Assembly: GCA_945903545.1 (NCBI GenBank)
Contig: CAMDOO010000037.1
Location: forward strand, 1-32,532
Direction of reading: 5' to 3'
Length of the DNA: 32,532 bases
DNA from: Opitutus sp. GAS368
Lineage (GTDB): Bacteria; Verrucomicrobiota; Verrucomicrobiia; Opitutales; Opitutaceae
Below the pieces are notes generated by a model. That model saw only the letters and a program-made list of their open reading frames with translations. It had not been told where the DNA came from and did no database searches. This document shows, in pieces, positions 6,644 to 21,461 of the stretch. Numbering within the stretch: the stretch's first letter is position 1; each line of letters starts with the position of its first letter. Position numbers and translations under genes: made by a program.

Positions 6644-7530
6644 ACCCTCCCGTCCGCGCCTCTTGTTGCCGCTTGTCGATGACCCCGCCTGATCTCGGAG
6701 CGATCATGACTGCGTGGGCCCGGCGCCAGCCGGCCGTCAGCGGCCTGACCCTGATCGGCTCGCGCGTGCGTCCGGCCCGGGATCCGGTCTGGCGGCCTGA
6801 TGGGCACTCTGACTGGGACTTCCAGCTGATCACCTCGCAGCCGGAGGTTTTCCTGCGGCGCGACTGGGCGCGGGAACTCCCGGGCGTCGCGCTCCTCGCT
6901 TACGGGGTGCGGCCCGCCCGCATCGGCGGCGTACCAAAGGTCAACGCGGTCTTTGCCGGCGCCGAGGCCGACTTTGTGGTCCTGCCTGAGACGGTGCTGG
7001 CCCCCCTGCGCCGGGCGGTGAAGGCGGGACGCCATCGCCGCCTCGGCGCGGAACGCGGCGCGCTGCAGGATCTCGCGCTGGTGATCCGGCCCGGCTGGCG
7101 GTTCCTGCTGGGCGAACGTGCCTGGGGCCCGATGTTCCGACGGGTCGTGGCGGACATCCCTGACGCCCGGCCCGGCGATGCGGCCCTGCGCAACCTGGCG
7201 GAGTGTTTCTGGTGCGACCTGGTCTGGATCCGGCGCAAACTGGAGCGCGGCGAGTGTCTGGCCGCGCAGCGCCTGCTGCACCAGTCCCTCGCCGAGACGA
7301 ACCTGCGACTGCTGCACGAGTTGCGCCTGCGCCGCGGTGAACGGAGTTTCCCCGAGGGCCGCCGCTTGGAAATGATCGCAGCGGCCGCCGAGGTGCGACT
7401 GGCGACCGTCTCGGTCAAAGCGACGGCGCGGGCGCTCCGGGCCGCGACGGACCGGGCCGCGCGGAATTGCACGAAGCTGATGCGGATGCTGGTGGGTCCG
7501 GATTGGAAGCCTCCGGCGATCGACCGGTAG
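6640..7530 (+). CDS. ANT(6)-like nucleotidyltransferase-fold protein
   Basis: The 296-residue protein shows a polymerase-beta-type nucleotidyltransferase core resembling aminoglycoside 6-adenylyltransferases. It has a Gly-Ser motif (LIGSR, residues 38-42), a D-x-D pair (HSDWDF, Asp58 and Asp60) and a possible third acidic residue in EADFVVLP (Asp111). The rest is helical and Arg/Leu-rich, as in the C-terminal half of that family. All three acidic positions are present, so nucleotidyl transfer is plausible; the acceptor (drug, small metabolite or protein) is unknown. The GTG at 6640 overlaps the preceding TGA, which argues for coupling. ATG 6679 (MTPPDLG) is an equally reasonable start and removes 13 residues. 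It is the last gene of the signalling operon, so a role in that pathway is more likely than simple resistance; that is inference. Confidence 0.7.
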   Translation: MNPPVRASCCRLSMTPPDLGAIMTAWARRQPAVSGLTLIGSRVRPARDPVWRPDGHSDWDFQLITSQPEVFLRRDWARELPGVALLAYGVRPARIGGVPKVNAVFAGAEADFVVLPETVLAPLRRAVKAGRHRRLGAERGALQDLALVIRPGWRFLLGERAWGPMFRRVVADIPDARPGDAALRNLAECFWCDLVWIRRKLERGECLAAQRLLHQSLAETNLRLLHELRLRRGERSFPEGRRLEMIAAAAEVRLATVSVKATARALRAATDRAARNCTKLMRMLVGPDWKPPAIDR

Positions 7531-7556
7531 GGCGCGCCGCGATGTTCCCCTGCGGG

Positions 7557-7858
7557 TTTTGCCGCAGAGGCATAGGGCGGCGGAGCCGCAACCATAGCCC
7601 GGAAGAGTAGCCACAAAAAGGCACAAAAATTGCCGGGGCTGCGGATCGAGTCTCCCGCTCGCCTATAGGCGCAATGGCGACGTCGCCGGAGCCGGAGAAC
7701 TTCTTGGGCCTTTTCGTGGCCAAACCGGCTGGGAATTCGTCACGGCCCGCGAGGATTTTCACATACAGTAGTACAGAGGCGCAGAGGACGGAAGATTTCG
7801 GGGTTAGAAACCAATCCCGAAAACAACGTGGCTTGGGCTCCGTGCCTCTGGGGCAAAA
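7557..7858. repeat. Gene-free stretch bracketed by a 16-bp inverted repeat
   Basis: This gap lies between two converging genes and contains no credible gene. Its ends are TTTTGCCGCAGAGGCA (7557-7572) and its reverse complement with one mismatch (7843-7858). Inside lie one copy of the GCCACAAAAAGGCAC element (7610-7721) and a CAGAGGCGCAGAGG fragment near 7774. The outer repeats could fold in transcripts from either side, but no poly-T tract follows, so I do not call a terminator. Confidence 0.6.
7610..7721 (+). repeat. Dispersed intergenic element, copy A
   Basis: It begins GCCACAAAAAGGCACAAAAA (7610-7629), has a palindromic core GCCTATAGGC followed by GCAATGG (7661-7677), and ends GGGCCTTTTCGTGGCC (7706-7721). 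The same three-part arrangement recurs at 25457-25570 and, inverted, at 29630-29797. The ends are imperfect inverted repeats of each other. Confidence 0.7.
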
Positions 7859-7867
7859 CATCCGTCT

Positions 7868-8866
7868 TCAGCTCGACTGGAACAACTCGGCGATGATGTC
7901 CTCGAGGGGCACATCCTCGATCGTGATGTCGGCGACCGGACCCGCGCTGAGGATCTCCTGCGAGACGGCCCCGATGTTCTCACCGGGCACGCAGAGGGTG
8001 AATTTGCCGTCGGGGGCACGGGTGGTTTTGCCGTGGCGCGAGCTCCAGTCGTCGGGGAAGGCGGTGTGGCCGGACGCGTCGATGGCGCCGACCGCGGGCA
8101 TGAAGGTGATGATCTTCTTTTTGCTGCCGTCGCCCGACTCCAGCCGGGCCAGCGCGCCGTCGTAGATCTTCTTCCCCTTGTGGATCACGATCACGCGTTC
8201 GCAGAGCTCCTTGATGTCGGCCATGTAGTGGCTCGTGAGCAGGATCGTGACGCGGTGTTTCCGGTTGTACTCGCGCAGGAAGTTGCGGACGGCCTTCTGC
8301 GAGACGACGTCGAGCCCGATGGTCGGCTCGTCGAGGAACAGCACGCGCGGGCGGTGGAGCAGGGCGGCGATGAGCTCCATCTTCATGCGCTCGCCGAGGG
8401 AGAGCTCGCGGACCTGGACATTGAGCTTGGCACGCACGTCGAGCAGGTCGACCAGTTCGTCGAGGGCCTGCTGGTATTCCGCGGCGGGCAGGCCGTAGAT
8501 GTGGCGCAGCAGGACGAAGGACTCGATCGCCGGGAGGTCCCACCAGAGCTGGTTCTTCTGGCCGAGCACGAGGGCGAAGATGCGGCGGTAGGCGTTGTCG
8601 CGCTTGACCGGGTTAAAGCCCGCGACCTGCGCCGTGCCGCTGGTCGGGTGGATCAGCCCGGAGAGCATCTTCAGGGTGGTGGTCTTGCCCGCGCCGTTTG
8701 GCCCGAGGAAGCCCACAAACTCGCCCTCGGCGATGTTGAAGCTGATGTCGTCGGCCGCGCGCGTCTCCTCGAAGTCCCGCTTGAACAGCCCGCGCACGCC
8801 CCCGAGGAAGCCGGGCTGCTTCTTGTAGGTGCGGAAGACGCGGGTGAGATGGGAGACCTCGATCAT
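7868..8866 (-). CDS. ABC transporter ATP-binding protein (ABC-2 / NatA type)
   Basis: The 332-residue nucleotide-binding subunit would power an ABC-2 exporter. Walker A is GPNGAGKTT (residues 55-63). A Q-loop region reads LGQKNQLWWDLPA, the signature is LSLGERM, Walker B is VLFLDEPTIGLD, and the switch His is in LTSHY. The last about 80 residues form a C-terminal extension after the core. The start was placed at ATG 8866 (MIEVSHLTRVF); the frame is open 15 codons further upstream, but the sequence there is not family-like. No permease gene is adjacent: downstream lie a repeat-filled gap and a converging gene, so the membrane partner must be elsewhere. The substrate cannot be told. It is divergent from the lipoprotein gene at 8969, with about 100 bp between starts. 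Confidence 0.9.
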   Translation of the reverse strand: MIEVSHLTRVFRTYKKQPGFLGGVRGLFKRDFEETRAADDISFNIAEGEFVGFLGPNGAGKTTTLKMLSGLIHPTSGTAQVAGFNPVKRDNAYRRIFALVLGQKNQLWWDLPAIESFVLLRHIYGLPAAEYQQALDELVDLLDVRAKLNVQVRELSLGERMKMELIAALLHRPRVLFLDEPTIGLDVVSQKAVRNFLREYNRKHRVTILLTSHYMADIKELCERVIVIHKGKKIYDGALARLESGDGSKKKIITFMPAVGAIDASGHTAFPDDWSSRHGKTTRAPDGKFTLCVPGENIGAVSQEILSAGPVADITIEDVPLEDIIAELFQSS

Positions 8867-8968
8867 GGGGTGGGCGGGCCATAACCGGGCGCAGGCTCGG
8901 AAAAGATGCAAGTGGAAGGTTACGGTCCGGGCTTTGACGCCGCCGGGGAATCGGGCATTTTCGGCCGC

Positions 8969-9406
8969 ATGAAAATTTCCCCGCGGTCCACGGTCCTCGC
9001 CGGCGTTCTCGCCCTGTGTTTTTCCGCCTGCTCCGGACCGAGCACGATGTCGCGGGTCAACGCCAACCGCGCGATCTACAGCACCTGGCCGCCGGAGATC
9101 AAGGAGGCCGTGCTGGCGCAGAAGGCGATTCCCGGGATGAACCCCGAGATGGTGCGGGTGGCGCTGGGTAAACCCAACCAGGTGATCGCGGGCGCCAATC
9201 CCGGGGAGGAAGTCTGGATCTACCGGCGCGGTGCGGGCGAAGGTGGCAGCGGGACAAATGTGCAGATCGGAGCCAATCTCGGTGGCATGCAGATCGGCGG
9301 CAGCAACGGCGGCGGAAGTGGCATGGGCATGACTCCGGGTGACGAAGACTCCGGCGAGGTCATGTTCAAGGACGGCCTCGTTGTCCGCTCGAATGTGATC
9401 CCTTAA
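8969..9406 (+). CDS. BamE/SmpA-like lipoprotein
   Basis: The 145-residue exported lipoprotein starts MKISPRSTVLAG with a hydrophobic core and lipobox FSAC (Cys21 as the lipidation site). Residues about 48-85 contain GMNPEMVRVALGKPNQV followed by GEEVWIYRR, the helix-turn plus 'G-x-P' and 'W-x-Y' pattern of the SmpA/OmlA (BamE) domain. A Gly/Ser/Met-rich low-complexity stretch follows, then a short basic end. BamE proteins help assemble outer-membrane barrels, but this one is longer and Gly-rich, so it may only share the fold. The start is chosen so that the signal peptide begins at once. It stands alone on the plus strand and converges with the DUF4266 gene. Confidence 0.75.
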   Translation: MKISPRSTVLAGVLALCFSACSGPSTMSRVNANRAIYSTWPPEIKEAVLAQKAIPGMNPEMVRVALGKPNQVIAGANPGEEVWIYRRGAGEGGSGTNVQIGANLGGMQIGGSNGGGSGMGMTPGDEDSGEVMFKDGLVVRSNVIP

Positions 9407-9440
9407 GACCGGTCGAGAACGGGGCCGGGATCATTCCGGT

Positions 9441-9674
9441 TCAGTTGCAGCCGCACCCGCTGCCCCCGACCCCCGCCCCGCCGGCCGAGCCTTCGCGGGA
9501 GAAAAGGATGTGCTCGGCAAAGACGGCGTCCAGCGGGGCGCGCCGGGGATTCATCAGCTCGTCGGCCAGGGTCGCACGTTCCCAGGGTTGCACGCGGACG
9601 GGCTGGAAAGTTGCACAACCCCCGAGGAGGAGGGCGGCGAGGAGGAGGGCGGCGGAGCGAAGGGGCGTTTCCAT
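9441..9674 (-). CDS. DUF4266 family lipoprotein
   Basis: The 77-residue exported lipoprotein has signal peptide METPLRSAALLLAALLLGGC with lipobox LGGC (Cys20). The mature part has VQPWERATLADELM, a run rich in acidic and Pro/Arg residues, EHILFSREGS, and a Gly-rich tail ending GGSGCGCN. This arrangement (W-E-R near the N-terminus, 'EH-x-x-F-S-x-E' and a GCGCN terminus) matches DUF4266 as I know it. The function is unknown; the family typically sits beside DUF3570, thioredoxin-like and ApbE genes, as here. The two tail Cys residues could bind metal or form a redox pair, possibly with the upstream thioredoxin. Its ATG lies one base after the tlpA-like stop, so it is translationally coupled. Confidence 0.85.
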   Translation of the reverse strand: METPLRSAALLLAALLLGGCATFQPVRVQPWERATLADELMNPRRAPLDAVFAEHILFSREGSAGGAGVGGSGCGCN

Positions 9675-9675
9675 G

Positions 9676-10176
9676 TCAGTTCTTTTCGGCGAGCAGGGCC
9701 TCGATGGCCTTCCGCAGGGCGGTTTCCGTGGGCTTGCCCCGGAAACCCTCGTGGATGCTGCGCAGTCGGCCGGCGCGATCGATGAGGTAACTGGTGGGCA
9801 TGGCCGGCACCTTGACCTCCCGGACGAGCCTTTGCTCATGGTCGCGGACAGTGTCGAATCCCGGCTTGAACCGCTTCACGAAGCTTTCGAAGTCAGCCGC
9901 CTTCTCGTCCACGCTGACGGCCACGATGACGAGGCCGCGCGCCCCATAATCCTGCTGGAGCCGGGTGAAGAATGGGAACGAATCCCGGCAGGGTGCGCAC
10001 CACGAGGCCCAGAAATCCACGAGCACGATCTTGCCGGCGGTGGCGGGCAGACCGCCGGTGAACGCGGCGGACTCCAGGGCGGGGAACGGCGCGCCAACCC
10101 GCACCTCGGCCCGCGCACCGGCGCAGAGGACAAGGCCGAGCAGGACGAGGGCACTGAGTCTGGGGTTGCTCTGCAT
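9676..10176 (-). CDS. TlpA-like periplasmic thioredoxin
   Basis: The 166-residue exported thioredoxin-fold protein has a signal peptide (residues 1-23, ending AGARA), then VLVDFWASWCAPCRDSFPFF with the active-site CAPC (Cys60 and Cys63). The cis-Pro loop is VPAMPTSYLID. Length and motifs fit TlpA/ResA-type reductases that act on periplasmic or membrane-anchored cysteines. In this operon the only obvious extracytoplasmic Cys-pair partner is the GCGCN tail of the DUF4266 protein, so that is a candidate substrate; this is inference. It lies 39 bp after the DUF3570 gene and one base before the DUF4266 gene. Confidence 0.92.
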   Translation of the reverse strand: MQSNPRLSALVLLGLVLCAGARAEVRVGAPFPALESAAFTGGLPATAGKIVLVDFWASWCAPCRDSFPFFTRLQQDYGARGLVIVAVSVDEKAADFESFVKRFKPGFDTVRDHEQRLVREVKVPAMPTSYLIDRAGRLRSIHEGFRGKPTETALRKAIEALLAEKN

Positions 10177-10215
10177 GGGATGGGGAGGGCGGCTTCAGGC
10201 GGCGGGGTTCGGGCC

Positions 10216-11382
10216 TTACCAGGAGAACTTGAGCCCGGCGCTCGTGATGACCGCCTGGCTGTAGGCGCTGGCCGGGGTGGCGCCGTCGCGCCCCTGCAGG
10301 TCGTAGTCCTTCCAGGCGGCATTGATCTCCAGGCGGTCGGACACCCGCCAGCTGACCTTCAGGCCGAGGGTCAGGCTGTCGAGAGCGGAGAGGCGGTAGT
10401 CGGAGGAATAGAACGGACCCTGCGGGCGGGGGGCGCCGAAGACGGGGACGATGGGAGTCTGGTCTAGATTGTAGTAATAGAAGCGGGCCGCATCCTGCCG
10501 GTACCAGCGCACGAGCGGCTCCAGCGTGACCCGCGATCCGACCCGCTGCAGCCAGGTGAGGCTCAGGGTGTGCGAGGCGATCCCGAAATTGTCGTGGAAA
10601 AAGCGGTAGGACCCCTCGAGCGCCGCCCTGACATCGGGGAAGGCGCGGTTGACGGTGGCGAGGGTGATCCATTTTTCCCGCCGGTCGGGCCGGTTCTCGG
10701 GGAAGGTGAGGGGCAGGAAAATCCCGGGCACGATCTCGGTGGCCTTCTGCACCAGCTTGTACTGGTCGTTCAGGTAGCCGTGGGCCCGGCTGAAGGTGAC
10801 GTTGAAGGAGACCGAGGTGCGCGGATCGAGGACCTGGGTGGCGCCGACGATGACATCCAGGGTGCGCTTGCCCAGCACGGGCGAAGGAAACTGGTAGAAC
10901 GCCTTGATGTCGTCCGTCGTCACGGCCGCCCCCGCGAGCAGGGTGGTGTTCTTCTGGTTGAAGTCCGTCAGCGTGTTGAGTGAGAAGGCCGTGGAGACAT
11001 AGTCGCCCTCGCGACTGTGGGCGACGCCGAGCGCGGCGTTGAGGCGGGGGAACTGCCGCGCCATCTCCGCGTTCCAGGCCTTGCGGCGTTCCGTGAGCGA
11101 GGTGAGCACGACCTGGTCGGAACCGGCCGGGGCGCGCTGGCCGTTCGGCGTGGCCCCGGCGATGGCGTCGATCACGCCGCCCACCCGGACCGTGGTCGCG
11201 GTGCCGATCGTCCCCTCGAGGAGGGCGCCCTGCGTCTGGACGCCGATGCGCCCGCCCGACTCCTGGTAGTCCTCGTACTTGTAGGAAACGGCGGCCTCGC
11301 CGCGTCCGGTCCGCGCGGTGCCGGCGACGAGGGCGAGGGTGGCCAGCAGCGATTGCAGGGTGGATCGGCGGGGCGGGGTCAT
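10216..11382 (-). CDS. DUF3570 outer-membrane beta-barrel protein
   Basis: The 388-residue protein has a signal peptide (about 1-30) and SYKYEDYQESGGRIGVQ at the mature N-terminus. Alternating hydrophobic/polar strands with frequent aromatic residues follow to the end, closing with LKFSW, a C-terminal aromatic as in outer-membrane barrels. This matches DUF3570. Residues 72-78 read DAIAGAT (codons 11169-11149), which fits the D-x-x-(S/T/A)-G-A-(T/S) pattern that ApbE uses to attach FMN to a Ser/Thr; Thr78 would be the acceptor. A second D-x-x-x-G-A-T (DVIVGAT) occurs mid-barrel and may be chance. An ApbE gene lies in the same cluster. The start at ATG 11382 is 6 nt after the stop of the Ig-like gene. 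Confidence 0.85.
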   Translation of the reverse strand: MTPPRRSTLQSLLATLALVAGTARTGRGEAAVSYKYEDYQESGGRIGVQTQGALLEGTIGTATTVRVGGVIDAIAGATPNGQRAPAGSDQVVLTSLTERRKAWNAEMARQFPRLNAALGVAHSREGDYVSTAFSLNTLTDFNQKNTTLLAGAAVTTDDIKAFYQFPSPVLGKRTLDVIVGATQVLDPRTSVSFNVTFSRAHGYLNDQYKLVQKATEIVPGIFLPLTFPENRPDRREKWITLATVNRAFPDVRAALEGSYRFFHDNFGIASHTLSLTWLQRVGSRVTLEPLVRWYRQDAARFYYYNLDQTPIVPVFGAPRPQGPFYSSDYRLSALDSLTLGLKVSWRVSDRLEINAAWKDYDLQGRDGATPASAYSQAVITSAGLKFSW

Positions 11383-11388
11383 GGGGCG

Positions 11389-12981
11389 TTACTGACCGTA
11401 GAATTCGAGGAGGGCGACCCCGGTTGTTTCGGCCGCGCCGCGGGCGGTGGCGAGATAAACCCCGGGCGGAAGGGTGATGAACATCATCGCGTCCTTGCTG
11501 GCAAGGTCGGTCAACGGAAAGGCGCTGGCTGCGGTGTTGGCCGCCACGAGGTCCGCGGTGCCGCCCCAGTTGTCGTTGCTGCCCAAGAACGCATTGCTGC
11601 CCGCCACGGTGAGGTCGAGCTGCGGGTCGGCCATCGACCCGGGGACGTTGTGGGGGATTAGCCCCGGACCGACTACCTTGATGAGCACGGTCTTGGCGGT
11701 TGATCCCGCGATGACGAAGCCGGCGACAAAAATATCGGCGCCGGTGCCGATCCGGCCGCGGAGGGAAAGCGCGTAAAGGTTGGCCGGGTTGTCCAGCCCG
11801 TAGAATTCAACCAGCGAAACCCCGGTGGTGTTGCCGACCCCGCTGGCGGTCGCGAGATAGACCCCGCTGGACAGGGTGCGCAGCATGACGGCATCGCGGG
11901 TCGTGGCATCGGCCAGCGGGAACGCCCCGGCCTCCGCGTTGGCCGCGATGAGGTCGGTGGCGCCGCCCCAGTTGTCATTGCCGCCGAGCGCGAGGTTGGA
12001 GCCGGCGACGGTCAAATCGAGCCGCGGGTCGGCCATCGCCCCGGGGACGCCGAGGGCGGCGATCCCCGGCCCGACCGACTTCACCAGGATCCGTCCGCCG
12101 GCGCCCTCGAGGACAAAGCCGACGACAAACACATCGGTCCCGGCGCCCACATTGCCCCGGAGGGACAAGGCGCGGATATCACCGCGCGAAGCGGAGGAGG
12201 CCAGCACGGTGACCGTGCCGGCATTGGTGGTGGCTGTGGCCCCGGCGGATGTCACCGCGCAGGTGTAGTTGCCGGAGTTGGCGCTGGTGACGCCGGACAG
12301 CACCAGCAGCGGGTTGGTTGCTCCCGGGATGGGGCCGCTTCCCGTCTTCGACCACTGGTAGGTCATGGAACCCGCCGCCGTCGCCGTCGCGGTCGCGAGC
12401 AAGGCGACCTTTTGGCCTGCCACCACGGTCACGCTCAGCGGATGCCCCGTGATCGTCGGGGGCGGCCCGGTGCCGGCGGAAGCGATGACAAAATTGATCG
12501 CGTTGAACACGCTGTCCGTGAGGCCCTGGGGGTTGAAGCCCTGCACCCGCACCGTGAAGCTGCCGGCCGTCGTGGGGGTTCCCGTGATCGCCGGTTTGCC
12601 CGACGGGATTGTGTTGCCCGTGGGAGCCGGCAGGAAACTCAGCCCCGGGGGAAGCGTCCCGGTGAAGATGAACTGCGACGGGGAAGTCGGGGTGCCCGTG
12701 TAGGTGAACGCGACCGACAGCGGCGTCCCCACGGTGCCGTTGACGGGGTTGCCCGGGCTTTGGGCGAAGGTGGTCGCCCCGGCCCGGGAATGCAGCGCGC
12801 CGAGTGCCCCGACGATCAGGGATGATCGCATCACAGTGCCGGCAGCCGGGCCCGGGAGGATTTGTCCGGCCAGGGACAGCAGCCGCGGGATGGGCAGGCG
12901 CTGCAGGAAGGCGACCAAGAGCAGTGCCGGGAAGCTGACGCGGTGACAGCGGACCAGGAAAGACGTGAGGACTCTCGGCAT
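11389..12981 (-). CDS. Exported Ig-like protein with two NDNWGG repeats
   Basis: The 530-residue secreted protein has a putative Ig-type domain at about residues 70-168 (SVAFTYTGTPTSPSQF, TLPPGLSF), an Ig-like domain at about 175-260 (TYQWSKTG, NSGNYTCAVTSAG), then two tandem repeats of about 128 residues each. Both repeats share R-A/Y-LSLRG, FVxGFV, KxVGPG, MADPxLDLTVAGSN, NDNWGG and GVYLAT followed by GVxLxEFYG. The same repeat occurs twice in the M64 peptidase at 22278. I know it as common in Verrucomicrobiota exported proteins, function unknown. Two starts are possible: ATG 12981, or ATG 12831 (MRSSLIVGALGALH), which gives a cleaner signal peptide. It is embedded between ApbE and DUF3570 genes, an unusual place for such a protein. 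Confidence 0.8.
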   Translation of the reverse strand: MPRVLTSFLVRCHRVSFPALLLVAFLQRLPIPRLLSLAGQILPGPAAGTVMRSSLIVGALGALHSRAGATTFAQSPGNPVNGTVGTPLSVAFTYTGTPTSPSQFIFTGTLPPGLSFLPAPTGNTIPSGKPAITGTPTTAGSFTVRVQGFNPQGLTDSVFNAINFVIASAGTGPPPTITGHPLSVTVVAGQKVALLATATATAAGSMTYQWSKTGSGPIPGATNPLLVLSGVTSANSGNYTCAVTSAGATATTNAGTVTVLASSASRGDIRALSLRGNVGAGTDVFVVGFVLEGAGGRILVKSVGPGIAALGVPGAMADPRLDLTVAGSNLALGGNDNWGGATDLIAANAEAGAFPLADATTRDAVMLRTLSSGVYLATASGVGNTTGVSLVEFYGLDNPANLYALSLRGRIGTGADIFVAGFVIAGSTAKTVLIKVVGPGLIPHNVPGSMADPQLDLTVAGSNAFLGSNDNWGGTADLVAANTAASAFPLTDLASKDAMMFITLPPGVYLATARGAAETTGVALLEFYGQ

Positions 12982-13105
12982 GAGGCGGGGGTGCTGGACA
13001 GCTTCGGAGCGGACGATATCGCGGACCTGAGACTTGATCCCGGTTTCGGGCGGGGAGATCGAGATCTAATCAGTAACTAGCCGGTAACAGCCACCTCCAA
13101 ACGGG

Positions 13106-14101
13106 TTAGGCCATGGCCAGGTATTGGTAGAATCCCCGGGTCTGGGCGCGGGAATCTTCCGCCACCAGCAGACCCTCGGCCCCGGGGCACGACTGGATGA
13201 ACTCGAGACCCCGGGGGACCCCCAGGACAAAGGCGGTCGTCGAGAGCACGCCGGCCTGAAGGCAGGTCCCGGCGATGACGGTGGCCTGGATGCACCCGTT
13301 TGCCACCGGCCGCCCGGTGCGCGGGTCGATGATGTGCCCGTAGCGCCGGCCCTCGGCGACAAATGAGCGCTGGTAGTCACCGGATGACGCAATGCCCCGG
13401 CCGCTTAGCCCGACACTTTCCCGACAAGTTCCCGGACGGAAGGGATCCTCCAGCCCGATGTGCCAAGCCGGCCGCCCCGGGGGCACGCCGAGCGCGCGCA
13501 GGTCGTGGCCAAAATCAACCAGGACCGCGGACAATCCTTGTTCGGTCGCCAACCGCGCCACCATGTCCACGGCGTACTCCTTCCCGAACCCGCCGAAGTC
13601 GAGCGCCATGCCCGCCATCGGCAGGAAAACCCGACCGGGCTCGCGTTTCACCTTGGCCCAGCCCACGAGGGAGAGAGCTTCGGCCATCTGCGTGTCAGAT
13701 GGCACCGTGGGAGGCTGCCGTTTCCAGTTCCAGAGTTGGATGACGGGCAGCGCCGTGGGGTCGAGCACTCCCTGGGTCATGAAGTGGAGCGTCTGGCAGA
13801 GTTCCAGCATGGCCTCCATCTCGGGATCGACGGGAACCCAGTCGCGACCGGCGGCGGCATTGATCCGGCTGAGCAGGCTTGTGGGCAGGAAACGGGAGTA
13901 CTTCGCTTCGAAGGCCTGCACCCAGGCGACCGCCGCGCGCTCGAAGGCCGCAGCCTGGACCTCGCCGGCCGGCGCCACGTACTGCACCTCGCAGGCCGTG
14001 GCCATCGCGTGGAAGGCAAGTTTCCTCAGGGGAAAGGCGTGCCCATCGCCAGCCTCGTCTGGCGCGGGTTGCGGCTGCAGGGGCTGGAACGGCGGAGTCA
14101 T
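13106..14101 (-). CDS. apbE: ApbE-like FAD:protein FMN transferase
   Basis: The 331-residue protein belongs to the family that transfers FMN from FAD to Ser/Thr of target proteins. Visible family features are AMATACEV near residue 32, LDFGGFGKEYAVD (168-179), LVDFGHDLRALG, a GDYQR segment and YGHIIDPRTGRPV (254-266), then VLSTTAFVLG. There are two oddities. There is no signal peptide or lipobox (the start reads MTPPFQPLQPQPAP), although many ApbE proteins are periplasmic lipoproteins. The usual Mg-ligand 'A-D-A-L-S-T' reads AGVLST, so Gly284 replaces the Asp while Thr288 is kept. This may be a subfamily trait or may reduce activity. It starts 9 nt after surE and heads the DUF3570/TlpA/DUF4266 cluster. 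Confidence 0.88.
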   Translation of the reverse strand: MTPPFQPLQPQPAPDEAGDGHAFPLRKLAFHAMATACEVQYVAPAGEVQAAAFERAAVAWVQAFEAKYSRFLPTSLLSRINAAAGRDWVPVDPEMEAMLELCQTLHFMTQGVLDPTALPVIQLWNWKRQPPTVPSDTQMAEALSLVGWAKVKREPGRVFLPMAGMALDFGGFGKEYAVDMVARLATEQGLSAVLVDFGHDLRALGVPPGRPAWHIGLEDPFRPGTCRESVGLSGRGIASSGDYQRSFVAEGRRYGHIIDPRTGRPVANGCIQATVIAGTCLQAGVLSTTAFVLGVPRGLEFIQSCPGAEGLLVAEDSRAQTRGFYQYLAMA

Positions 14102-14110
14102 GGCTGTGCT

Positions 14111-14926
14111 TCAATGCCCCAGCCGCGTGTAGTCCAGCACCGTGTGGCTGATGTGGCCCGCGGCGAGGCAGGCGCGGTCCGTCAGCTTGCCCTCCGGTGA
14201 GAGATCCTCGCCGTGATTGTAGGCGAAGCGGTGCATGCCGTCGTCCTCCGCCGGGCTGAACATTCCCACCGCGGAAATTTGCGCCGGCACGGTCAGGTGC
14301 ACGGGACTGTCGGTGCGGCAGGGGAAGGGGAAGTTCACATTGTGCACGGTGAACGGGCGCCGGTCGCCGGGCGCGAGCAACTCGCCCGCGAGGCGGGCGG
14401 CATGTCCAACTGTGGCCGTGATCGTGGCGGAAACCTCCGGGGTCATGGCGGAGCCGGGTTTTTTCAGCGCGAGGAATCCGGGCGGAGTGAGTTCTTGCGA
14501 AAACGCCACGGCGGGCAGGCCGTGCAGCGCGCCCTCACAGGCGCCGCCAATGGTGCCGCTGGCGAGGATGAACCCGATGCTGGTGTTGCGGCCGGTGTTG
14601 ATGCCGGAGACCACGCCCTCGATTGCGTTCCCGGCGCCTTCGGCCAGCGCGGCCCGGCCGTCCGCGCCCCGCGGCAGCAGATGGGCGAGGGCGATGTTCA
14701 CGCAGTCGCTCGGCGTGCCGTCCACGATCCAGGTCGGGCAGCCGAGCCCGCGTTCTTCGCGCCGCGAGGGCACGGGGCGGTGGCGGGACTTCGCCGCGCC
14801 GATCCAGCTCTGCTCGCGCTCGGGGGCGACGACTGCCGCGCGGTGGCCGGCGGCGAGCAGTGCGCGCACCAGCTCATGGAGGAGATGGCTGTCGATGCCA
14901 TCATCGTTGGTGACGAGGAGATTCAT
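14111..14926 (-). CDS. surE: 5'/3'-nucleotidase SurE
   Basis: The 271-residue metal-dependent phosphatase removes phosphate from nucleoside 5'- and 3'-monophosphates. The N-terminus MNLLVTNDDGIDS carries the metal-binding Asp pair. VVAPEREQSWIG, DGTPSDCVNIAL and VVSGINTGRNTSIGF give the other family motifs, including the Ser/Asn metal and phosphate ligands. The length is normal. ATG 14926 was chosen because it puts the metal motif at residues 7-11; the open frame reaches 15109 but is not family-like there. It follows purE after 127 bp of repeat-rich sequence and precedes apbE by 9 nt. A nucleotidase downstream of purine synthesis genes is functionally coherent. Confidence 0.93.
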   Translation of the reverse strand: MNLLVTNDDGIDSHLLHELVRALLAAGHRAAVVAPEREQSWIGAAKSRHRPVPSRREERGLGCPTWIVDGTPSDCVNIALAHLLPRGADGRAALAEGAGNAIEGVVSGINTGRNTSIGFILASGTIGGACEGALHGLPAVAFSQELTPPGFLALKKPGSAMTPEVSATITATVGHAARLAGELLAPGDRRPFTVHNVNFPFPCRTDSPVHLTVPAQISAVGMFSPAEDDGMHRFAYNHGEDLSPEGKLTDRACLAAGHISHTVLDYTRLGH

Positions 14927-14940
14927 TGACCGCCCACGAA

Positions 14941-15040
14941 ACACACCAAGGACGCGAAAGGGAGGAAGAAAAAGAGCTTCCCGGCAGCAAACCGCCCGGA
15001 TTTGAACAGAAGCTAGCGAAGGTAACGAAGCGGCTAGGGC
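14941..15040. repeat. Repeat-like sequence between purE and surE
   Basis: The 127-bp gap holds an ACACACCAAGGACGCGAAAG stretch (14941-14960) and a TTTGAACAGAAG / GAAGGTAACGAAG stretch (15001-15030). Both resemble short dispersed repeats I know from intergenic DNA of this phylum. No hairpin followed by poly-T is seen on the minus strand, so read-through from purE into surE remains possible. Confidence 0.4.
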
Positions 15041-15053
15041 AGAATCGAGGCAT

Positions 15054-15563
15054 TCACCCGGAGATGGTTCGCTGGAGCTTCCGGTTGCGGTCCCGAGACT
15101 CCGCGGCAATCCGGGTCCGGAAGCGGGTCAGTTTCGCCATCAACCCAGGGTTCGTTCCTGCCAGGATCGCGATGGCAAGCAGGCCGGCGTTCCTGGCCCC
15201 GCCGATCGCCATCGTGGCAACCGGGACTCCGCCCGGCATCTGCACGATCGACAGCAGCGAATCGATTCCCTTGAGGGACTTGCTCTCGACGGGCACCCCG
15301 ATCACCGGCAGCGGGGTCAGGCTCGCCACCATCCCCGGCAGGTGGGCGGCCCCGCCGGCCCCGGCGATCACGACCCGCAATCCGCGCCGGTGGGCCGACT
15401 TGGCGTAGCGCACCATGTCCTCCGGCGTGCGGTGGGCCGAGAGAACTTGCACCTCGCAGGGAACCGCGAATGCACGGCAGACCGCATGAGCGGCCTCCAT
15501 GGTCGGCCAATCGGAGTCGCTGCCCATGATGATCCCAATCAGGACCGGTTTGTTGTTTTTCAT
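15054..15563 (-). CDS. purE: N5-carboxyaminoimidazole ribonucleotide mutase PurE
   Basis: The 169-residue enzyme converts N5-CAIR to CAIR in de novo purine synthesis. [13 protein letters not shown] (residues 10-22) is the substrate-binding P-loop, followed by [11 protein letters not shown], with the catalytic His in the SAHR motif. [12 protein letters not shown] and [20 protein letters not shown] are further class I motifs. The presence of PurK next door supports class I (mutase, bacterial type). The start ATG overlaps the purK stop (ATGA, 15560-15563), the usual tight coupling of the pair. Confidence 0.96.
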
Positions 15564-16753
15564 CGGTTTTCGAAACTAATCCTTCCGGCTGCCTCCTCCG
15601 CCGCCGTCCGCGCGTCGCCGGTGGAATCGCCGAGCGCGGTGACGTGGCCCATTTTCCGGCCGGACCCGCTCGTCGTCTTTCCGTAGAGGTGAACGCGAGC
15701 GCCGCGCACCGCGAGTGCATGCTCCAGGCCGAGCGGTCGGCCGGGGGCGGTGCCAGTGCCGAGCAGGTTTACCATCACCGCTGCCGGCGCGAGCATGCGG
15801 GGTGATCCGAGCGGCCAGCCGACAACGGCTCGCACATGATTCTCAAACTGCGAGCACTCGCAGGCCTCGATGGTGTAATGCCCGGAGTTGTGGACCCGCG
15901 GTGCCAGCTCGTTGATCGCGATATCGCCGGCGGTCGAGAGGAACATCTCGACCCCAAACGTGCCGATGGCACCGACCGCGGCCACCGCCTGCCGGGCAAG
16001 ATTAGCCGCGCGGACGGCGAGTTCCGGGGCGATCGCCGCGGGAGCCGATACGGTGTGGCACACATGGTCGCGTTGGAATGTCTCAACCACGGGGTAGGTC
16101 GCGATCTCGCCGTTTCTCCCGCGGGTGACGATCACGGCCAGCTCCCGGGAAAACGGGAAATAGGCCTCGACGTACAATGCGTTCCGGTCTCCCCCGAGCC
16201 CATTCCAGGCTGCATTCGCCGCCATGGCGGAGGACACCGTGGCGTTTCCCTTGCCGTCATAACCGTTGCGGCGGGTCTTCAGGACGACCGGCCAGCCAAA
16301 CTGCGTGCCCGCCCCGACGATGTCCTCGGGTGAGGCCACCGCGCAAAACCGGGGCACAGCCAGTCCGGCACCCACCAACGCCTCCTTTTGCCTCAACTTG
16401 TCCTGGGTGACGGCGAGGCATGCGGACGTCGGGAACACCGCGTGGCCGGCTTCCTCCAGGATCTGCAGGGCGCCGGCGTCCACAAACTCGTTCTCGAAGG
16501 TGAGCACGTCCACTTGGGACGCCATACCTGCCAGCACGGCGGGATCCGCCCAGTCGCCAATGATGACTCCGGGCAGGAGCAGCGCGCCCGGGCTGTGCGG
16601 ATCCTTTTCCAGTACGGTCACCCGGCATCCGAGTGCGTGCGCGGCCCGGGCCGTCATCGTGGAGAGCTGGCCGCCGCCAATGATCCCGATGCGGACGGCG
16701 GCGGTTGGCGCGCCGCGCTGCTGCTCAAAGTTGCGGTCGATGACTTCGTGCAC
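15560..16753 (-). CDS. purK: N5-carboxyaminoimidazole ribonucleotide synthetase PurK
   Basis: The 397-residue ATP-grasp ligase condenses AIR, ATP and bicarbonate to N5-CAIR. It shows the N-terminal Rossmann-like motif [22 protein letters not shown], the ATP-grasp loop [68 protein letters not shown] (listed here only as the conserved metal/ATP block around 'INELAPR'), and the C-terminal HLYGKT. The start is placed at GTG 16753, 7 nt after the sbtB stop. The frame is open upstream to ATG 16801 and 16840 inside sbtB, but those residues are not PurK-like. It sits directly behind a bicarbonate transporter and its regulator, and bicarbonate is PurK's substrate. Confidence 0.94.
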
Positions 16754-16760
16754 GTTGGCG

Positions 16761-17063
16761 TCAGAATTTATCGCGGCGCAGGACGCGAACGTCCGATTCA
16801 TGCGCGACCATGGCGAATTTCGGAAAAAATTCCCGCTCAAGGCGCAGGAGCAGCTGTTCCGCCACGGCGGGTGCGACGATCACCTCGACCTGGATGTTGG
16901 CGAATTCCCGGATGTCGGCCGTGCGGCGGCCCTGACGGCCGTCGCCTTCCACGGTGAACAGGATGTAGCCATGGGCGCCGACTTCATCGAGCAGCTGTTG
17001 CAGCGGCTTTCGGGCGAGCGCCTCGCATATGATGGTGACTAGTTTGACGGCGTGCGTTGTCAT
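16761..17063 (-). CDS. sbtB: SbtB-like PII signalling protein
   Basis: The 100-residue PII-superfamily protein has the ferredoxin-like order: strand KLVTIICEAL, helix KPLQQLLDEVGA, then GYILFTVEGDGRQGRR, where the Gly/Arg-rich segment is the T-loop. The strand VEVIVAPAVAEQLLLRL and a final strand VRVLRRDKF follow. It lacks the Tyr51 T-loop of GlnB and the redox CGPxGC tail of some cyanobacterial SbtB proteins. Known SbtB binds AMP, cAMP, ADP and ATP and inhibits SbtA. Its gene starts one base after the sbtA stop, so its identity as SbtB rests on both sequence and context. It is followed 7 nt later by purK. Confidence 0.85.
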   Translation of the reverse strand: MTTHAVKLVTIICEALARKPLQQLLDEVGAHGYILFTVEGDGRQGRRTADIREFANIQVEVIVAPAVAEQLLLRLEREFFPKFAMVAHESDVRVLRRDKF

Positions 17064-17064
17064 T

Positions 17065-18051
17065 TCAGGAGACTAAATACCGGGCAAACGCGTAGTAGAT
17101 CGGGATGCCGATCCCGACATTGAAGGGAAAGGTGACGGCGAGCGATGGGGTGAGGTAGAGCGCCGGATTTGCGTCGGGCAAAGACAGGCGCATCGCCGCC
17201 GGCGCGGCGATGTAGGAGGCGCTCGCAGCGAGGACGCCCATTAGGGTGGTGCCGCCGACGCTCAGGCCCGCATACTTGCCGACCACGACTCCGAGAAACC
17301 CGTGCAGCAAGGGCAGCACGATCGCAAAGGCGACGAGAAAGGGACCGACTTTCTTCAGGTCCTCGAGCCGCCGGCCGGCGACCAGGCCCATCTCAAGCAG
17401 GAACAGAGCGAGCACACCCTGGAAAGGACCAACGAAAAAGGGCTCAACCCGGTCCATGCCGGCCTTGCCGCAAAGCGCCCCGGCGACCAGGGTTCCGAAC
17501 AGCAGGAACACGCTCCTCCCCAGCAGGGCCTCATGCAGTACCTTCCGGAGGGAGCCGCCGAAAATCCCGGGCTGCGGACCGAGCGACATCTTGCCGAGGA
17601 CGACTCCCACCACGATGGCCGGCGACTCCATCACCGCGAGGAAGGCGGTGGCGTAATTCTCGTACGGCTCGTTGATGCCCTTGAGATAATTCGTCGCCGT
17701 GATGAAGGTAACTGCACTGACCGAGCCGTAGTGCGCCGCCACCGCCGCCGCGTCCACGGGCCGCAGGCGCCCGCCGAAGCGCAGCAGGGGATAAATCCAG
17801 AGCGGGATCACGGCGCCGAGCGCCATCGCCGCGACCGCGGGCAGGAACACGGTGGCAATGCCGGCCTCGCTGATCGCGACCCCGCCTTTGAAGCCGAGGG
17901 CCGCCAGCAGGTAGATCGTCAGGGTGACGTAAAGCGCCTCGGGAAACTTCAGGTCGCTCTTGAGCAGTGCTGCGATCAGCCCGAGGCCGAAAAACAGCAC
18001 GGCGGGCGACAGCAGATTGGTGGAGATTGCCTGGATGATGTCGGTGGCCAT
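17065..18051 (-). CDS. sbtA: SbtA-type sodium-dependent bicarbonate permease
   Basis: The 328-residue integral membrane protein has about ten hydrophobic helices with inverted-repeat symmetry. Recognisable blocks are LSPAVLFFGLGLIAALLKSDL at the start, AAHYGSVSAVTFITA (helix-break region of the transport core), AFLAVMESPAIVVGVVLG, and SASYIAAPAAMRLSLPDANP near the end. These match the DUF897/SbtA family, which imports HCO3- with Na+ in cyanobacteria and is found in many heterotrophs. The cytosolic loop between the two halves is present (SLGPQPGIFGGSLRKV). ATG 18051 opens the leftward operon sbtA-sbtB-purK-purE. A LysR gene is divergent from it, with a 195-bp shared control region. Confidence 0.9.
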   Translation of the reverse strand: MATDIIQAISTNLLSPAVLFFGLGLIAALLKSDLKFPEALYVTLTIYLLAALGFKGGVAISEAGIATVFLPAVAAMALGAVIPLWIYPLLRFGGRLRPVDAAAVAAHYGSVSAVTFITATNYLKGINEPYENYATAFLAVMESPAIVVGVVLGKMSLGPQPGIFGGSLRKVLHEALLGRSVFLLFGTLVAGALCGKAGMDRVEPFFVGPFQGVLALFLLEMGLVAGRRLEDLKKVGPFLVAFAIVLPLLHGFLGVVVGKYAGLSVGGTTLMGVLAASASYIAAPAAMRLSLPDANPALYLTPSLAVTFPFNVGIGIPIYYAFARYLVS

Positions 18052-18127
18052 GGGCTCAGTTCTGCCCGGCGGGCGTCTGGGGGCATGCGGGACCGGCCGG
18101 CGGCCGGGACCCCGGCCGGATGGCGGG

Positions 18128-18139
18128 CACGACGTCGTG
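18128..18139. promoter_or_regulatory. 12-bp perfect palindrome upstream of sbtA
   Basis: CACGACGTCGTG is a perfect palindrome in the control region between sbtA and lysR, 77 bp upstream of the sbtA start. It could be an operator half or chance in GC-rich DNA. No other copy was noticed in the window. Confidence 0.3.
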
Positions 18140-18213
18140 GCGGATGGATCGGGCGGTTCGTGGGCTCATGCGCCCGCAGACTATCAACGAGCCGTTGTTA
18201 TGAAAAACAGATT

Positions 18214-18244
18214 GTTCCTACAGGAACGTTCGGTAAAACCGAAC
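18214..18244. promoter_or_regulatory. Two abutting inverted repeats at the lysR start (likely LysR operator)
   Basis: GTTCCTACAGGAAC (18214-18227, 6-bp arms) directly abuts GTTCGGTAAAACCGAAC (18228-18244, 7-bp arms). Both have the outline GTTC...GAAC, and the second contains a T-N11-A LysR-type core (TCGGTAAAACCGA). The second repeat ends 2 bp before the lysR ATG, so regulator binding would block or autoregulate its own gene. The sbtA start is about 160 bp away on the other side. Confidence 0.55.
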
Positions 18245-18246
18245 AT

Positions 18247-19224
18247 ATGGACGCTGCACTCAAGACGCCGGAATGGCTGAATTTCCATCACCTCCGCAAT
18301 TTTTGGATGATCGCCCGGCACCGGAGCATGGCGCGTGCGGCGGAGGCGCTGAACGTTTCGCCCTCTACCTTGAGCGAGCAGCTCCGGGAGCTCGAGGCAT
18401 GGCTGGGCCAGCCATTGTTCGACCGCCGGGGCCGGCAGCTGCACCTGACCGGGGCCGGCCGGCTGGCGTTGCAGCACGCGGAGACGATTTTCGAGACCGG
18501 GCGGGACCTGCTGGCCCGGTTCCGGCAGTCGGGGCAGGGCGACCGGCGGGTCCTGCGCCTCGGCGCGGTCGGGCCGCTCTCGAAGAACCTGCAATTCGAT
18601 TTCATCCAGCCGCTGCTGTCGGATCCCGCGGTGCGGGTGGTGGTGGTCGCCGGGCCACTGGAGGAGTTGTTGCGGCAGTTGCGGGAGCACCGGCTCGACC
18701 TCGTGCTGTCGAATTTCCCGGTGCGCCCGGACCAGGAGAGCGACATCTTCAATCACTTGCTAGGGGCGGTGCCGGTGTATCTGGTGGGAGGCCGGCCCGG
18801 GCGGCGCCCCCGCGGCGGGTTCTTGGCCGCGGTGCGTGGCCAGCCGCTCTTCCTGCCGAGCCACCAGAGCCACGTGCGGTTGGATTTCGACCTGATCATG
18901 GCCAAGGCGGGAATCGAGCCGGAGATCCGCGCGGAGGTGGATGACATGGCGCTGCTGCGCCTCCTGGCGCTGTCCGGGCAGGGACTCGCGCTGGTCTCAA
19001 AGATCGTGGTCGAGCGCGACATCCAGGCGCGGAAGCTCCAGTACGTGCAGCGGGTTCCCGGGCTGGTGGAAAAGTACTTCGCGCTCGCCGCCCGCAAGCG
19101 GTTCGAGAACGCATGGATCGGCGAGATCGTGGAGGCGTTCCGGGCCCGGCTGGTCGAACTCTCCGCGGGTTCGCGGGCAGCAAAAAGCCGGGAACGCTCA
19201 GGCGGTCCCGGCTTGGGAAATTGA
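18247..19224 (+). CDS. LysR-family regulator, NhaR-like
   Basis: The 325-residue DNA-binding regulator has WLNFHHLRNFWMIARHRSMA opening the winged helix-turn-helix, the recognition helix in SPSTLSEQLRELEAWLG and the wing LFDRRGRQLHLTGAG. This opening resembles NhaR, the Na+-responsive LysR subgroup. A periplasmic-binding-like effector domain follows (about 95-300). It is divergent from the Na+/bicarbonate symporter gene, so regulation of sbtA (by Na+, HCO3- or a purine/carbon metabolite) is a reasonable inference. No ribosome binding site is seen; two inverted repeats run up to the ATG. The last residues (AKSRERSGGPGLGN) are encoded by the pnp terminator hairpin on the other strand. Confidence 0.9.
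   Translation: MDAALKTPEWLNFHHLRNFWMIARHRSMARAAEALNVSPSTLSEQLRELEAWLGQPLFDRRGRQLHLTGAGRLALQHAETIFETGRDLLARFRQSGQGDRRVLRLGAVGPLSKNLQFDFIQPLLSDPAVRVVVVAGPLEELLRQLREHRLDLVLSNFPVRPDQESDIFNHLLGAVPVYLVGGRPGRRPRGGFLAAVRGQPLFLPSHQSHVRLDFDLIMAKAGIEPEIRAEVDDMALLRLLALSGQGLALVSKIVVERDIQARKLQYVQRVPGLVEKYFALAARKRFENAWIGEIVEAFRARLVELSAGSRAAKSRERSGGPGLGN
19182..19214 (-). terminator. Intrinsic terminator of pnp, inside the lysR 3' end
   Basis: On the minus strand a 9-bp perfect stem (AAGCCGGGA / TCCCGGCTT, 19185-19193 with 19206-19214, 12-nt loop) ends in a T run (TTTTT). It lies about 40 nt after the pnp stop. The two convergent genes overlap in function here, because the stem is also read as lysR codons. 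Confidence 0.75.
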
Positions 19225-19253
19225 GCGGGGCGCCAGGGGCGCCGCGCCGTGGA

Positions 19254-21461
19254 TTACTGGGCCGGGGCCTCGGGCGCGGCGCCGTCGGCGGGCTGCTGGC
19301 CTTCCATTTCCTTCATCGCGGCCTTGCGCGAGAGGCGGACCTTGCCGGAGCGCTCGTCGATGCCGATGCACTTCACCCAGATCATGTCGCCCATCTTGAC
19401 GACGTCCTCGGTGCGGCGCACGCGGAAGTCCGCGAGCTCGCTGATGTGGACGAGGCCCTCCTTGCCGGGGGTGCACTCGACGAAGCAGCCGAAGTCCTTC
19501 ACGCCCGTGACACGGCCGTGGTAGAGCTTGCCGTTCTCGATCGGGGCGCCGCCGCCGCCGCCACCACCACCGGAACCGCCGCCGCAGAGACCGTCGATCT
19601 CGGCGATCGCGCGGTTCATGGCCTCGGCGTTGTTCGAGTAGACGAACACCTTGCCGGAGTCGTCCTCGGCGATGTCGATCTGCGCACCGGTCGTTTCCGT
19701 GATGCGGCGGATCGTCTTGCCGCCGGGCCCGATGAGCAGGCCGATCTTCTCGGGGTCGATTTGGATCGTCTGGATGCGGGGCGCGTACTTGGAGAGGTCC
19801 GTGCGGGGGGCGGGCAGGGAGGCGAGCATCGTGCGGAGGATCTCGATGCGGGCGTCGCGGGCCTGGAAGACCGCGGTCTTGGCGATCTCGAAGGGCAGGC
19901 CGTTGATCTTCAGGTCGAGCTGGAAGCCGGTGATACCCTTGGTGGTGCCGGCGATCTTGAAGTCCATGTCGCCGAAGTGGTCTTCCTCCCCGAGGATGTC
20001 CGTGATGGTGGTCCACTTGGTGATGGCGCCGTGGGCATCCATCTCGGTCATGAGGCCGCAGGAGATGCCGGCGACCGGGGCGATGATGGGCACGCCGGCG
20101 TCCATGAGGGCGAGGCAGCCGCCGCAGATCGAGGCCATCGAGGTCGAGCCGTTGGAGGCCATGATCTCGGAGACGACGCGGATGGAGTAGGGGAACGCAT
20201 CCTCCGGGGGCAGCACCGGGACGAGCGAGCGCTCGGCGAGGGCACCGTGGCCGATTTCGCGGCGGCCGGGGCCGATGAAGCGGCCGGCCTCGCCGACGGA
20301 GAACGGCGGGAAGTTGTAGTGGAGGATGAAGCTCTTCGATTTCGAACCACCGGTGAGGCCGTCCATGTCCTGGGCTTCCTTGGTCGGCCCGAGAGTGACG
20401 ATGGCGATGTTCTGGGTGTCGCCGCGCTGGAACATGGCGGAGCCGTGCACGCGGGGGAGGACGCCGACCTGCGCCTGGAGCGGGCGGAGGGACTTGGCAT
20501 CACGGTGGTCGGAACGGACGCCCTTGGCCAGGACGGTGGCGCGGTACGCCTTGTACTGGAGGTCCTCGAAGACGACGTTGAGGTCGACATCGGTGAACTT
20601 GCCTTCGCCGAGCTCCTTGAGGAGGGCCGCCTTGGCCTCTTCCTTGAGCGCCTTCACGTTGGTCGTGCGGACGTTCTTCTCGAAGCCGAAGATGGCGGCG
20701 GAAACACGCTCAGCCGGGACGACACGCTCGATGATGGCGCGGGCCTCGGGGGTGGCGCCGACGAGCTTGAAGGTGGCCTTCGGTTTGCCGGCGAGCTTCT
20801 GGAGCTCTTTGATCGCGGCGATGATCGGCTGGATGGCCTCGTGACCGAACGCGAGGGCCTCGATGAACTTCTCCTCGGAGATCTGGTCCGCGGAGCCCTC
20901 GATCATCAGCATGTCCTTCGTGTTGCCGACGTAGATGAGGTCGAGCGACGAGGAGTACATCTGCTCGATAGTCGGGTTGGCGACGAACTTGTCGTCGATC
21001 AGCGCAACGCGGACACAGCCGATCGGCCCGTTCCACGGGATGTCGGAGATGGCGAGGGCGGCGCTGGCGCCGTTGACCATCGAGATGTCGGAGTCGTTGA
21101 TCAGGTCGGCCGAGAAAAGCTGGCCGATGATCTGCACTTCATTGAGGAAACCCTCGGGAAAGAGCGGGCGGCAGGGACGGTCGCAGAGGCGGGAGATGAG
21201 GATCTCGCGCTCGGAGGGACGGCCCTCGCGCTTGAAGTAGCCGCCGGGGAAACGGCCGGCCGCGGCGTACTTGTCGCGGTAGTCGCAGGTGAGCGGGAAG
21301 AAGTCCTGGCCCGGGCGCATGGTCTGCGCGGCGCAGGCGGTGACGAAGACGTTGGTCTCGCCCACGCAGACATTGACGGCGCCGCCGGCGAGCTGGGCGA
21401 TGGAGCCGGTGGAGAAGGTCATCCCAATGCCGGGGACGGTGACGGAGTGTTTCTGATTCAT
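19254..21461 (-). CDS. pnp: Polyribonucleotide nucleotidyltransferase (PNPase)
   Basis: The 735-residue exoribonuclease degrades RNA with phosphate. It has two RNase PH domains (about 10-230 with the all-helical linker to 325, then 330-555), catalytic-core motifs [15 protein letters not shown] and [28 protein letters not shown], a KH domain with [15 protein letters not shown], and an S1 domain ([16 protein letters not shown]). Between KH and S1 the linker is [12 protein letters not shown], where most PNPases have an acidic segment. The tail ends with Ala/Pro/Gln. It follows rpsO in the classical order and ends at a clear terminator. Weak A-rich sequence (AAGAAAG) precedes ATG 21461. Confidence 0.97.

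Follow-up and report, generated by a model that had tools for sequence, protein, structure and literature searches.

A bicarbonate-transporter gene row that includes purK and purE in an Opitutaceae genome: a candidate cassette for purine synthesis at low CO2

The gene row and its control region

The window, the whole 32,532-nucleotide (nt) stretch of contig CAMDOO010000037.1 from Opitutus sp. GAS368 (assembly GCA_945903545.1), carries a leftward row of four genes, sbtA, sbtB, purK and purE, preceded by a divergent lysR gene. The row pairs a predicted bicarbonate importer and its PII-like partner with PurK, which uses HCO3- and ATP to carboxylate 5-aminoimidazole ribonucleotide (AIR) to N5-carboxyaminoimidazole ribonucleotide (N5-CAIR), and with PurE, which acts on that product. 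Spacing read from the window DNA confirms the tight packing reported in the initial annotation: sbtA and sbtB lie 1 nt apart, sbtB and purK 7 nt apart, and purK and purE overlap by 4 nt (ATGA). The source genome (G000; 3.08 Mb, 98.6% complete) holds a single Sbt_1 match, which is the window sbtA, and a single purK over the model cut-off. No Rfam element matches in the window at gathering score, and no foreign base composition is seen there, the GC fraction being 0.64-0.70 throughout. The features are as follows.

17065-18051, minus strand: sbtA, predicted Na+-dependent bicarbonate transporter of the Sbt_1 family (328 aa; Pfam PF05982, 385.6 bits; matches structure 7cye)
16761-17063, minus strand: sbtB, SbtB-like PII protein (100 aa; Pfam PF00543 (P-II), 59.2 bits; matches 2cz4 and cyanobacterial SbtB structures)
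15560-16753, minus strand: purK, N5-CAIR synthase (AIR + HCO3- + ATP), GTG start (TIGR01161, 383.8 bits against a cut-off of 318.4)
15054-15563, minus strand: purE, N5-CAIR mutase (TIGR01162, 216.7 bits against a cut-off of 149.6; alignment)
18247-19224, plus strand: lysR, NhaR-like LysR-family regulator, divergent from sbtA, with an inferred start codon
18175-18246, minus strand: conserved promoter-operator region between lysR and sbtA (inverted repeat and ACAATCTGTTTTT)
14939-19258, no strand assigned: whole cassette lysR-sbtA-sbtB-purK-purE, missing from the same-genus genome G030
14111-14926, minus strand: surE, flank outside the cassette; in G030 and G195 it adjoins pnp with no cassette between the two
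19254-21461, minus strand: pnp (TIGR03591), flank, the same in G183 and G030

The divergent lysR, which the initial annotation did not mention, belongs to the cassette. Its product has Pfam HTH_1 and LysR_substrate domains, and its best NCBIfam match is NhaR, under the cut-off of that model (scanned stretch 18232-19206). The intergenic region contains an inverted repeat, TTCGG-N5-CCGAA, at 18243-18229 and ACAATCTGTTTTT at 18215-18203, and both elements are common to eight of nine lysR-sbtA spacers, which align; the ninth and longer spacer, at L135, lacks the exact 13-mer. ACAATCTGTTTTT occurs once in the window (0 expected), and its matches among 501 loci fall in lysR-sbtA loci only. Both purK and purE are missing from the vicinity of two of the eight spacers that carry it (L035 and L040), so the element tracks lysR-sbtA and not the purine genes. 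Its conservation favours a single, LysR-controlled promoter for the row; LysR would act on this operator, and the row would be read as a single transcript. At L135 (~1340-4056), a beta-carbonic anhydrase-like gene lies between lysR and sbtA in an sbtA-sbtB-purK row.

The initial annotation also pointed to surE, a nucleotidase gene that begins 127 nt beyond purE. In G030 and G195 pnp adjoins surE with no block between them, so surE is a mere flank and is ruled out as an operon member. It lies downstream of pnp inside the retrieved stretch in 7/11 genomes, at distances of up to ~3.4 kb.

Recurrence of the linkage

The sbtA(B)-purK adjacency, whose conservation the initial annotation had left to be checked, recurs in Verrucomicrobiota, Planctomycetota and Deinococcota, in several orders. 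In a family sample of 200 genomes, 71 have an Sbt_1 match at an E-value of 1e-3 and 69 exceed the cut-off; purK and/or purE lie within 4 kb of sbtA in 11 of the 60 loci examined, the window not counted. The order lysR-sbtA-sbtB-purK-purE is found in the window, G183 and G159, and the same order without sbtB in G014 and G185. A second order, purK-purE-sbtA-sbtB, occurs in G114, G029, G081 and G056, with G193 showing purE-sbtA-sbtB at a contig end. G078 has purE-purK-sbtA, and in G042 purK-purE and sbtA are divergent and ~0.77 kb apart. Fourteen family genomes are linked in total, including two placed by coordinates: G145 (sbtA piece at C208:1-423 and purK at C208:812-1891, same strand) and G189 (short sbtA match at C4:7959-8150 and purK at C4:8370-9446). 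In G189 the match covers only the last part of sbtA, just ahead of purK and not at the contig start, and the gene is possibly decayed.

Among the best 80 of 588 candidate named genomes, a selection that biases the scan toward window-like SbtA, linked rows occur in metagenome-assembled genomes (MAGs), whose labels may be wrong: Verrucomicrobiota MAGs assigned to Pedosphaera, Limisphaera, Akkermansia and Rubritalea, one from Planctomycetota, and others assigned to Pseudomonadales and to Betaproteobacteria. In the same selection, the complete Thermus parvatiensis genome has such a row too. In Planctomycetota, 20 loci were examined out of 23 non-centre full-length places; in five of them purE-purK lie upstream on the strand of sbtA, with purK ~50-90 nt away in four. 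Twenty sbtA-positive Deinococcota genomes were chosen for spread and 19 examined; purE lies within 4 kb in 9/19, eight times upstream on the opposite strand at ~0.04-2.4 kb, and in the ninth locus (L399) purE and purK flank sbtA, which is on the opposite strand. Two linked loci from genomes used as sampling centres (L199 and L172) are excluded from the counts.

Specificity and co-occurrence

The neighbours of sbtA were counted in 154 non-redundant loci (tblastn at 1e-8, within 4 kb, with E. coli genes as queries). purE is near sbtA in 27/154 loci and purK in 23/154, either one in 28/154. Other purine genes are rare: purF is found twice and purM, purL, purB and purD once each, and purH, purN, purC, purA, guaA and guaB are each near sbtA in 0/154. 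Genes of other HCO3--using enzymes number four for ppc, three of them in one genus, and none for accC, accD, carA and carB. Of the purine genes tested, these counts single out only those of the bicarbonate step. As further controls, purN is found in 2/20 Planctomycetota loci, purC in 1/60 Pseudomonadota loci and no control purine gene in Deinococcota. In genus g21 (L076, L079 and L085), phosphoenolpyruvate (PEP) carboxylase lies 0.5-0.75 kb downstream of sbtA. In keeping with the bicarbonate theme, in G056 (L067, ~2400-9220, minus strand) PEP carboxylase (PF00311, 696.6 bits), purK, purE, sbtA, sbtB and beta-carbonic anhydrase follow one another on one strand.

The presence of purK also follows that of sbtA across the family. 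purK is present in 67/69 sbtA-positive vs 68/131 sbtA-negative genomes (Fisher p 1.3e-12; some genomes are incomplete, and purK fragments in G193 and G033 are counted as present), and p is 2.9e-10 without the 14 linked genomes. As related genomes are not independent, the value to trust is the one stratified over 14 informative genera, p 2e-5 (2/200 genomes without a visible genus excluded). The sbtA-positive, purK-negative exceptions are G148 and G195; near a contig end the former has a PurE of the PurK-partnered type, and the latter has no PurE match, so both may be assembly gaps. The bicarbonate-PurK tie put forward in the initial annotation thus stands as an association, through recurrence, specificity and co-occurrence; its extension to surE does not.

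PurK and two kinds of PurE

SAHRTP and AHLPGM, which we take to be class I PurE motifs, are both seen in E. coli PurE. The operon PurE has both and exceeds the TIGR01162 cut-off, which places it in class I. The conserved AIGKAGA stretch is 2 residues shorter (AIG--GA) in this PurE (15054-15563) and in its relatives in G183, G014 and G114. As in the canonical bacterial PurK-PurE route, the two enzymes exceed their equivalog cut-offs and PurE carries AHLPGM; unlike that route, the window pair adjoins a bicarbonate importer, and a second, differing PurE is encoded elsewhere in the genome.

The two kinds of PurE separate in a survey of 30 genomes, 22 without an over-cut-off purK and eight with one. 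PurE has no match in 3/22 purK-less genomes; 17 of the other 19 have AHLAGV, the exceptions being G072 (AHVAGM) and G148 (AHLPGM). All eight PurK-partnered PurEs have AHLPGM, as in E. coli. Both kinds occur in G000, G183 and G014, AHLPGM beside purK and sbtA and AHLAGV elsewhere (G014 has one further PurE copy outside the motif comparison). The only PurE of each of the same-genus genomes G030 and G069 shares 93% and 91% identity, respectively, with the AHLAGV PurE of G000 (G000:C9:58-501, locus L466), and neither sbtA nor purK is found in G030 or in G069, the latter only 75% complete. No second over-cut-off purK occurs in the 14 linked family genomes (that of G193 is a fragment on another contig).

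PurK takes HCO3- as substrate, and cyanobacterial purK mutants require high CO2 (passages of PMC10880623). Class I-like PurE without PurK is described from archaea, methanogens among them, where it is linked to the availability of CO2 (part of PMC3261824). The purK-less relatives of G000 resemble these archaea in having PurE and lacking PurK; they differ in the AHLAGV variant, and some genomes of the window's family also hold sbtA-purK-purE. The AHLAGV PurE may use CO2.

An empty site and the history of the cassette

A blastn comparison of the window with the pnp region of G030 (L482) matches 19259-21461 at 95.6% and 14111-14938 at 89.0%. The matched G030 stretches (4980-5807 and 6000-8205) lie 192 nt apart, without lysR-sbtA-sbtB-purK-purE, and the intervening 4.3 kb of the window is that block. 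Because pnp adjoins surE without it in a genome of the same genus, the block is an extra cassette; in G183, of another genus, it likewise lies between pnp and surE. The empty site fits gain by transfer and repeated loss alike. The ~4.7 kb at 9406-14110 of the window, beside surE and with an ApbE-like gene, is likewise absent at the matching place in G030.

On a FastTree phylogeny of SbtA (245 labelled of 250 rows), the linked label must change 19 times or more, a count inflated by the scoring of truncated contigs as unlinked, and a single frozen arrangement is ruled out on this basis. In the PurK tree, linked PurKs cluster and the label changes 4 times over 54 rows, which says little about how often the linkage arose because of the row make-up (33 linked and 21 unlinked, one of these E. 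coli). The window-type PurK clade takes in several family labels within Verrucomicrobiota, and 14 of its 15 members are linked.

The transporter and its PII-like partner

The window SbtA covers positions 1-307 of the 308 of the Sbt_1 profile and so has a full-length domain. In cyanobacterial SbtA, HCO3- is contacted by Ser114, Tyr140, Ser324 and Ser327 (PMC8352866). Aligned to 7cye, the window protein is like the cyanobacterial one in keeping Ser114 and Ser324 (as Ser112 and Ser279) and unlike it at the other two positions. The gene pair likewise resembles Synechocystis slr1512-slr1513 in its transporter family and PII-like partner, with sbtB directly after sbtA; it differs in its linkage to purK-purE and a LysR gene and in having no R-loop in SbtB.

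Assignment of the 100-residue product to SbtB rests on its PII domain, its match to SbtB structures and the position of its gene beside sbtA. Its best solved relative is TTHA0516 (PDB 2cz4), a Thermus PII-like protein labelled hypothetical and near-identical to the product of an sbtB that stands beside sbtA and purE-purK in T. parvatiensis. The purine genes are divergent from sbtAB in Thermus and co-directional in the window. A C-terminal redox loop, CGPxGC, is conserved in only some SbtBs; it is absent from the window SbtB and from all 93 SbtBs examined. The phosphate-contact motif of SbtB is Arg43xxArg46 (excerpt of PMC10117731). The equivalent of Arg46 is Arg47 in the window SbtB, with Arg there in 89/93 SbtBs, and that of Arg43 is Gln44, with Arg there in 48/93. 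With no redox loop and with Gln44, apyrase-type control is therefore unlikely, and adenylate binding is plausible. An sbtB-like open reading frame (ORF) is found in 32/37 loci that have purE or purK within 1.5 kb of sbtA.

Weighing a purine-directed bicarbonate supply

We put at roughly 0.6 the probability that the row is an accessory cassette in which imported bicarbonate safeguards purine synthesis through PurK when CO2 is low. As a genomic association, the tie of HCO3- uptake to PurK has good support; the proposed mechanism would run as follows. SbtA would bring in HCO3- with Na+, PurK would use it with ATP to carboxylate AIR to N5-CAIR, and its partner PurE would convert N5-CAIR to 4-carboxy-5-aminoimidazole ribonucleotide (CAIR). 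SbtB, as a PII-like adenylate sensor bound to AMP or ADP, would probably hold back SbtA, and uptake would then track energy state. Of all the steps, this gating of SbtA by adenylates is the least secure. The divergent LysR protein would govern the row through the conserved operator. The cassette would supplement a presumably CO2-dependent housekeeping PurE of the kind that purK-less relatives have.

The setting is unlike the CO2-concentrating mechanism of autotrophs in which the cyanobacterial SbtA-SbtB pair works. As the initial annotation had suggested, this contrast holds: the RuBisCO large subunit (PF00016) has no match in G000, nor in 22/26 linked or near-linked genomes, G000 included.

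Several observations weigh against the purine-directed reading. Linkage is a minority state: 53 sbtA-positive, purK-positive family genomes are not known to be linked, and linkage is found in 0/20 Verrucomicrobiota loci examined outside the family (phylum sample of 387 genomes, with one more full-length place outside the count) and in 0/60 Pseudomonadota loci. Genome G103 carries a PurK-PurE of the window-type clade with no sbtA in an 11-kb stretch or elsewhere in the genome. No sbtB-like ORF is found in 5/37 linked loci (L033, L051, L185, L381 and L388). The co-occurrence of sbtA and purK could stem from a shared low-CO2 habitat alone. G000 has one beta-carbonic anhydrase match, with no signal peptide evident by eye; such an enzyme would already interconvert CO2 and HCO3- and would bleed imported HCO3-. 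Near sbtA, beta-carbonic anhydrase is found in 17/154 loci, of which only L067 and L135 also have purE or purK. Within the transporter, the equivalents of Tyr140 and Ser327 are Leu138 and Ala282, so two of the four HCO3- contacts are altered, and a Shewanella relative, SO_3758, has formate phenotypes, formate being a possible substrate and the transport direction unknown (passages of PMC12093963). The probability given above is restrained mainly by the apparently cytosolic carbonic anhydrase, by the large number of unlinked sbtA genes and by the partnership that SbtA forms separately with carbonic anhydrase.

A beta-carbonic anhydrase match occurs in 171/200 family genomes, and the linked G042 and G078 have none by the same model. 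Substitution of SbtA for a missing carbonic anhydrase is ruled out for G000, which has the enzyme.

The best surviving alternative, to which we give about one chance in four, is that SbtA supplies HCO3- generally, to all carboxylases, where CO2 is low or conditions are alkaline, and that purK and purE are linked to it by shared habitat and co-transfer, with no dedicated supply to purine synthesis. Carbonic anhydrase is a second, mostly separate partner of sbtA, and because its genes are mostly separate from purE and purK, many SbtAs do look like a general supply. Most sbtA-positive family genomes are unlinked, ppc adds its four loci, and in Pseudomonadota the neighbours are beta-carbonic anhydrase (13/60) and biotin-carboxylase genes (4/60), one of the latter with a pyruvate-carboxylase-type pair. 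Against this stands the fact that purE and purK are by far the commonest neighbours in the 154 loci among the bicarbonate-consuming enzymes tested and are linked in several orders. Among the Pseudomonadota loci, L332 (1151-8317, minus strand) encodes a biotin carboxylase, a PYC_OADA/biotin subunit, sbtA, sbtB, a glutaminase and a carbonic anhydrase, and L326 and L328 have a biotin-carboxylase match and sbtB.

It is improbable that the transporter of this clade is instead a formate or small-anion carrier, or an exporter, with another chemical basis for the purine link. The altered contacts and the SO_3758 phenotypes favour such a carrier; the recurrent neighbours of sbtA, which are HCO3- users or carbonic anhydrase, argue for HCO3- as the substrate, and both this substrate and its inward direction are predicted for the window SbtA. 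Least probable of all is that SbtB acts on PurK instead of, or besides, SbtA, adenylates feeding back directly on purine synthesis: a gap of 7 nt separates sbtB from purK in the window, and the two genes also adjoin each other in G183 and G159, but the purK-purE-sbtA-sbtB rows place sbtB after sbtA and away from purK, two window-type loci have purK and no sbtB, and many sbtAB pairs have no purK nearby.

The purine-directed supply can be extended, tentatively and at somewhat less than even odds, to a transferable low-CO2 cassette. Lineages whose purine synthesis rests on a PurE that uses CO2 and needs no PurK would gain lysR-sbtA-sbtB-purK-purE in one piece and switch to bicarbonate-fed, ATP-driven carboxylation, with adenylates, the end products, throttling HCO3- entry through SbtB.

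Significance for the family and for heterotrophic SbtA

To our knowledge, the use that heterotrophs make of SbtA-like proteins has been little studied. Such proteins are present in numerous heterotrophic bacteria (part of PMC10117731). No description of the sbtA-purK/purE arrangement is found in the open-access papers searched, most of them represented by title and the start of the abstract (among them PMC3610870, which has 'sbtA' and 'purK'); the arrangement was likewise new to the initial annotation. The physical and phylogenetic tie to one bicarbonate-using step gives SbtA a concrete, testable role in heterotrophs, and the row offers a non-photosynthetic setting for the unsettled question of the effect of SbtB on SbtA.

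One bacterial family holds two alternative set-ups for AIR carboxylation, with the importer almost only alongside PurK. If the cassette is indeed transferable, a transporter and sensor of the carbon-concentrating type would serve nucleotide synthesis. The row and its recurrence in other phyla suggest a module for making the building blocks of DNA and RNA under scarce CO2, in a bacterium that apparently does not fix CO2.

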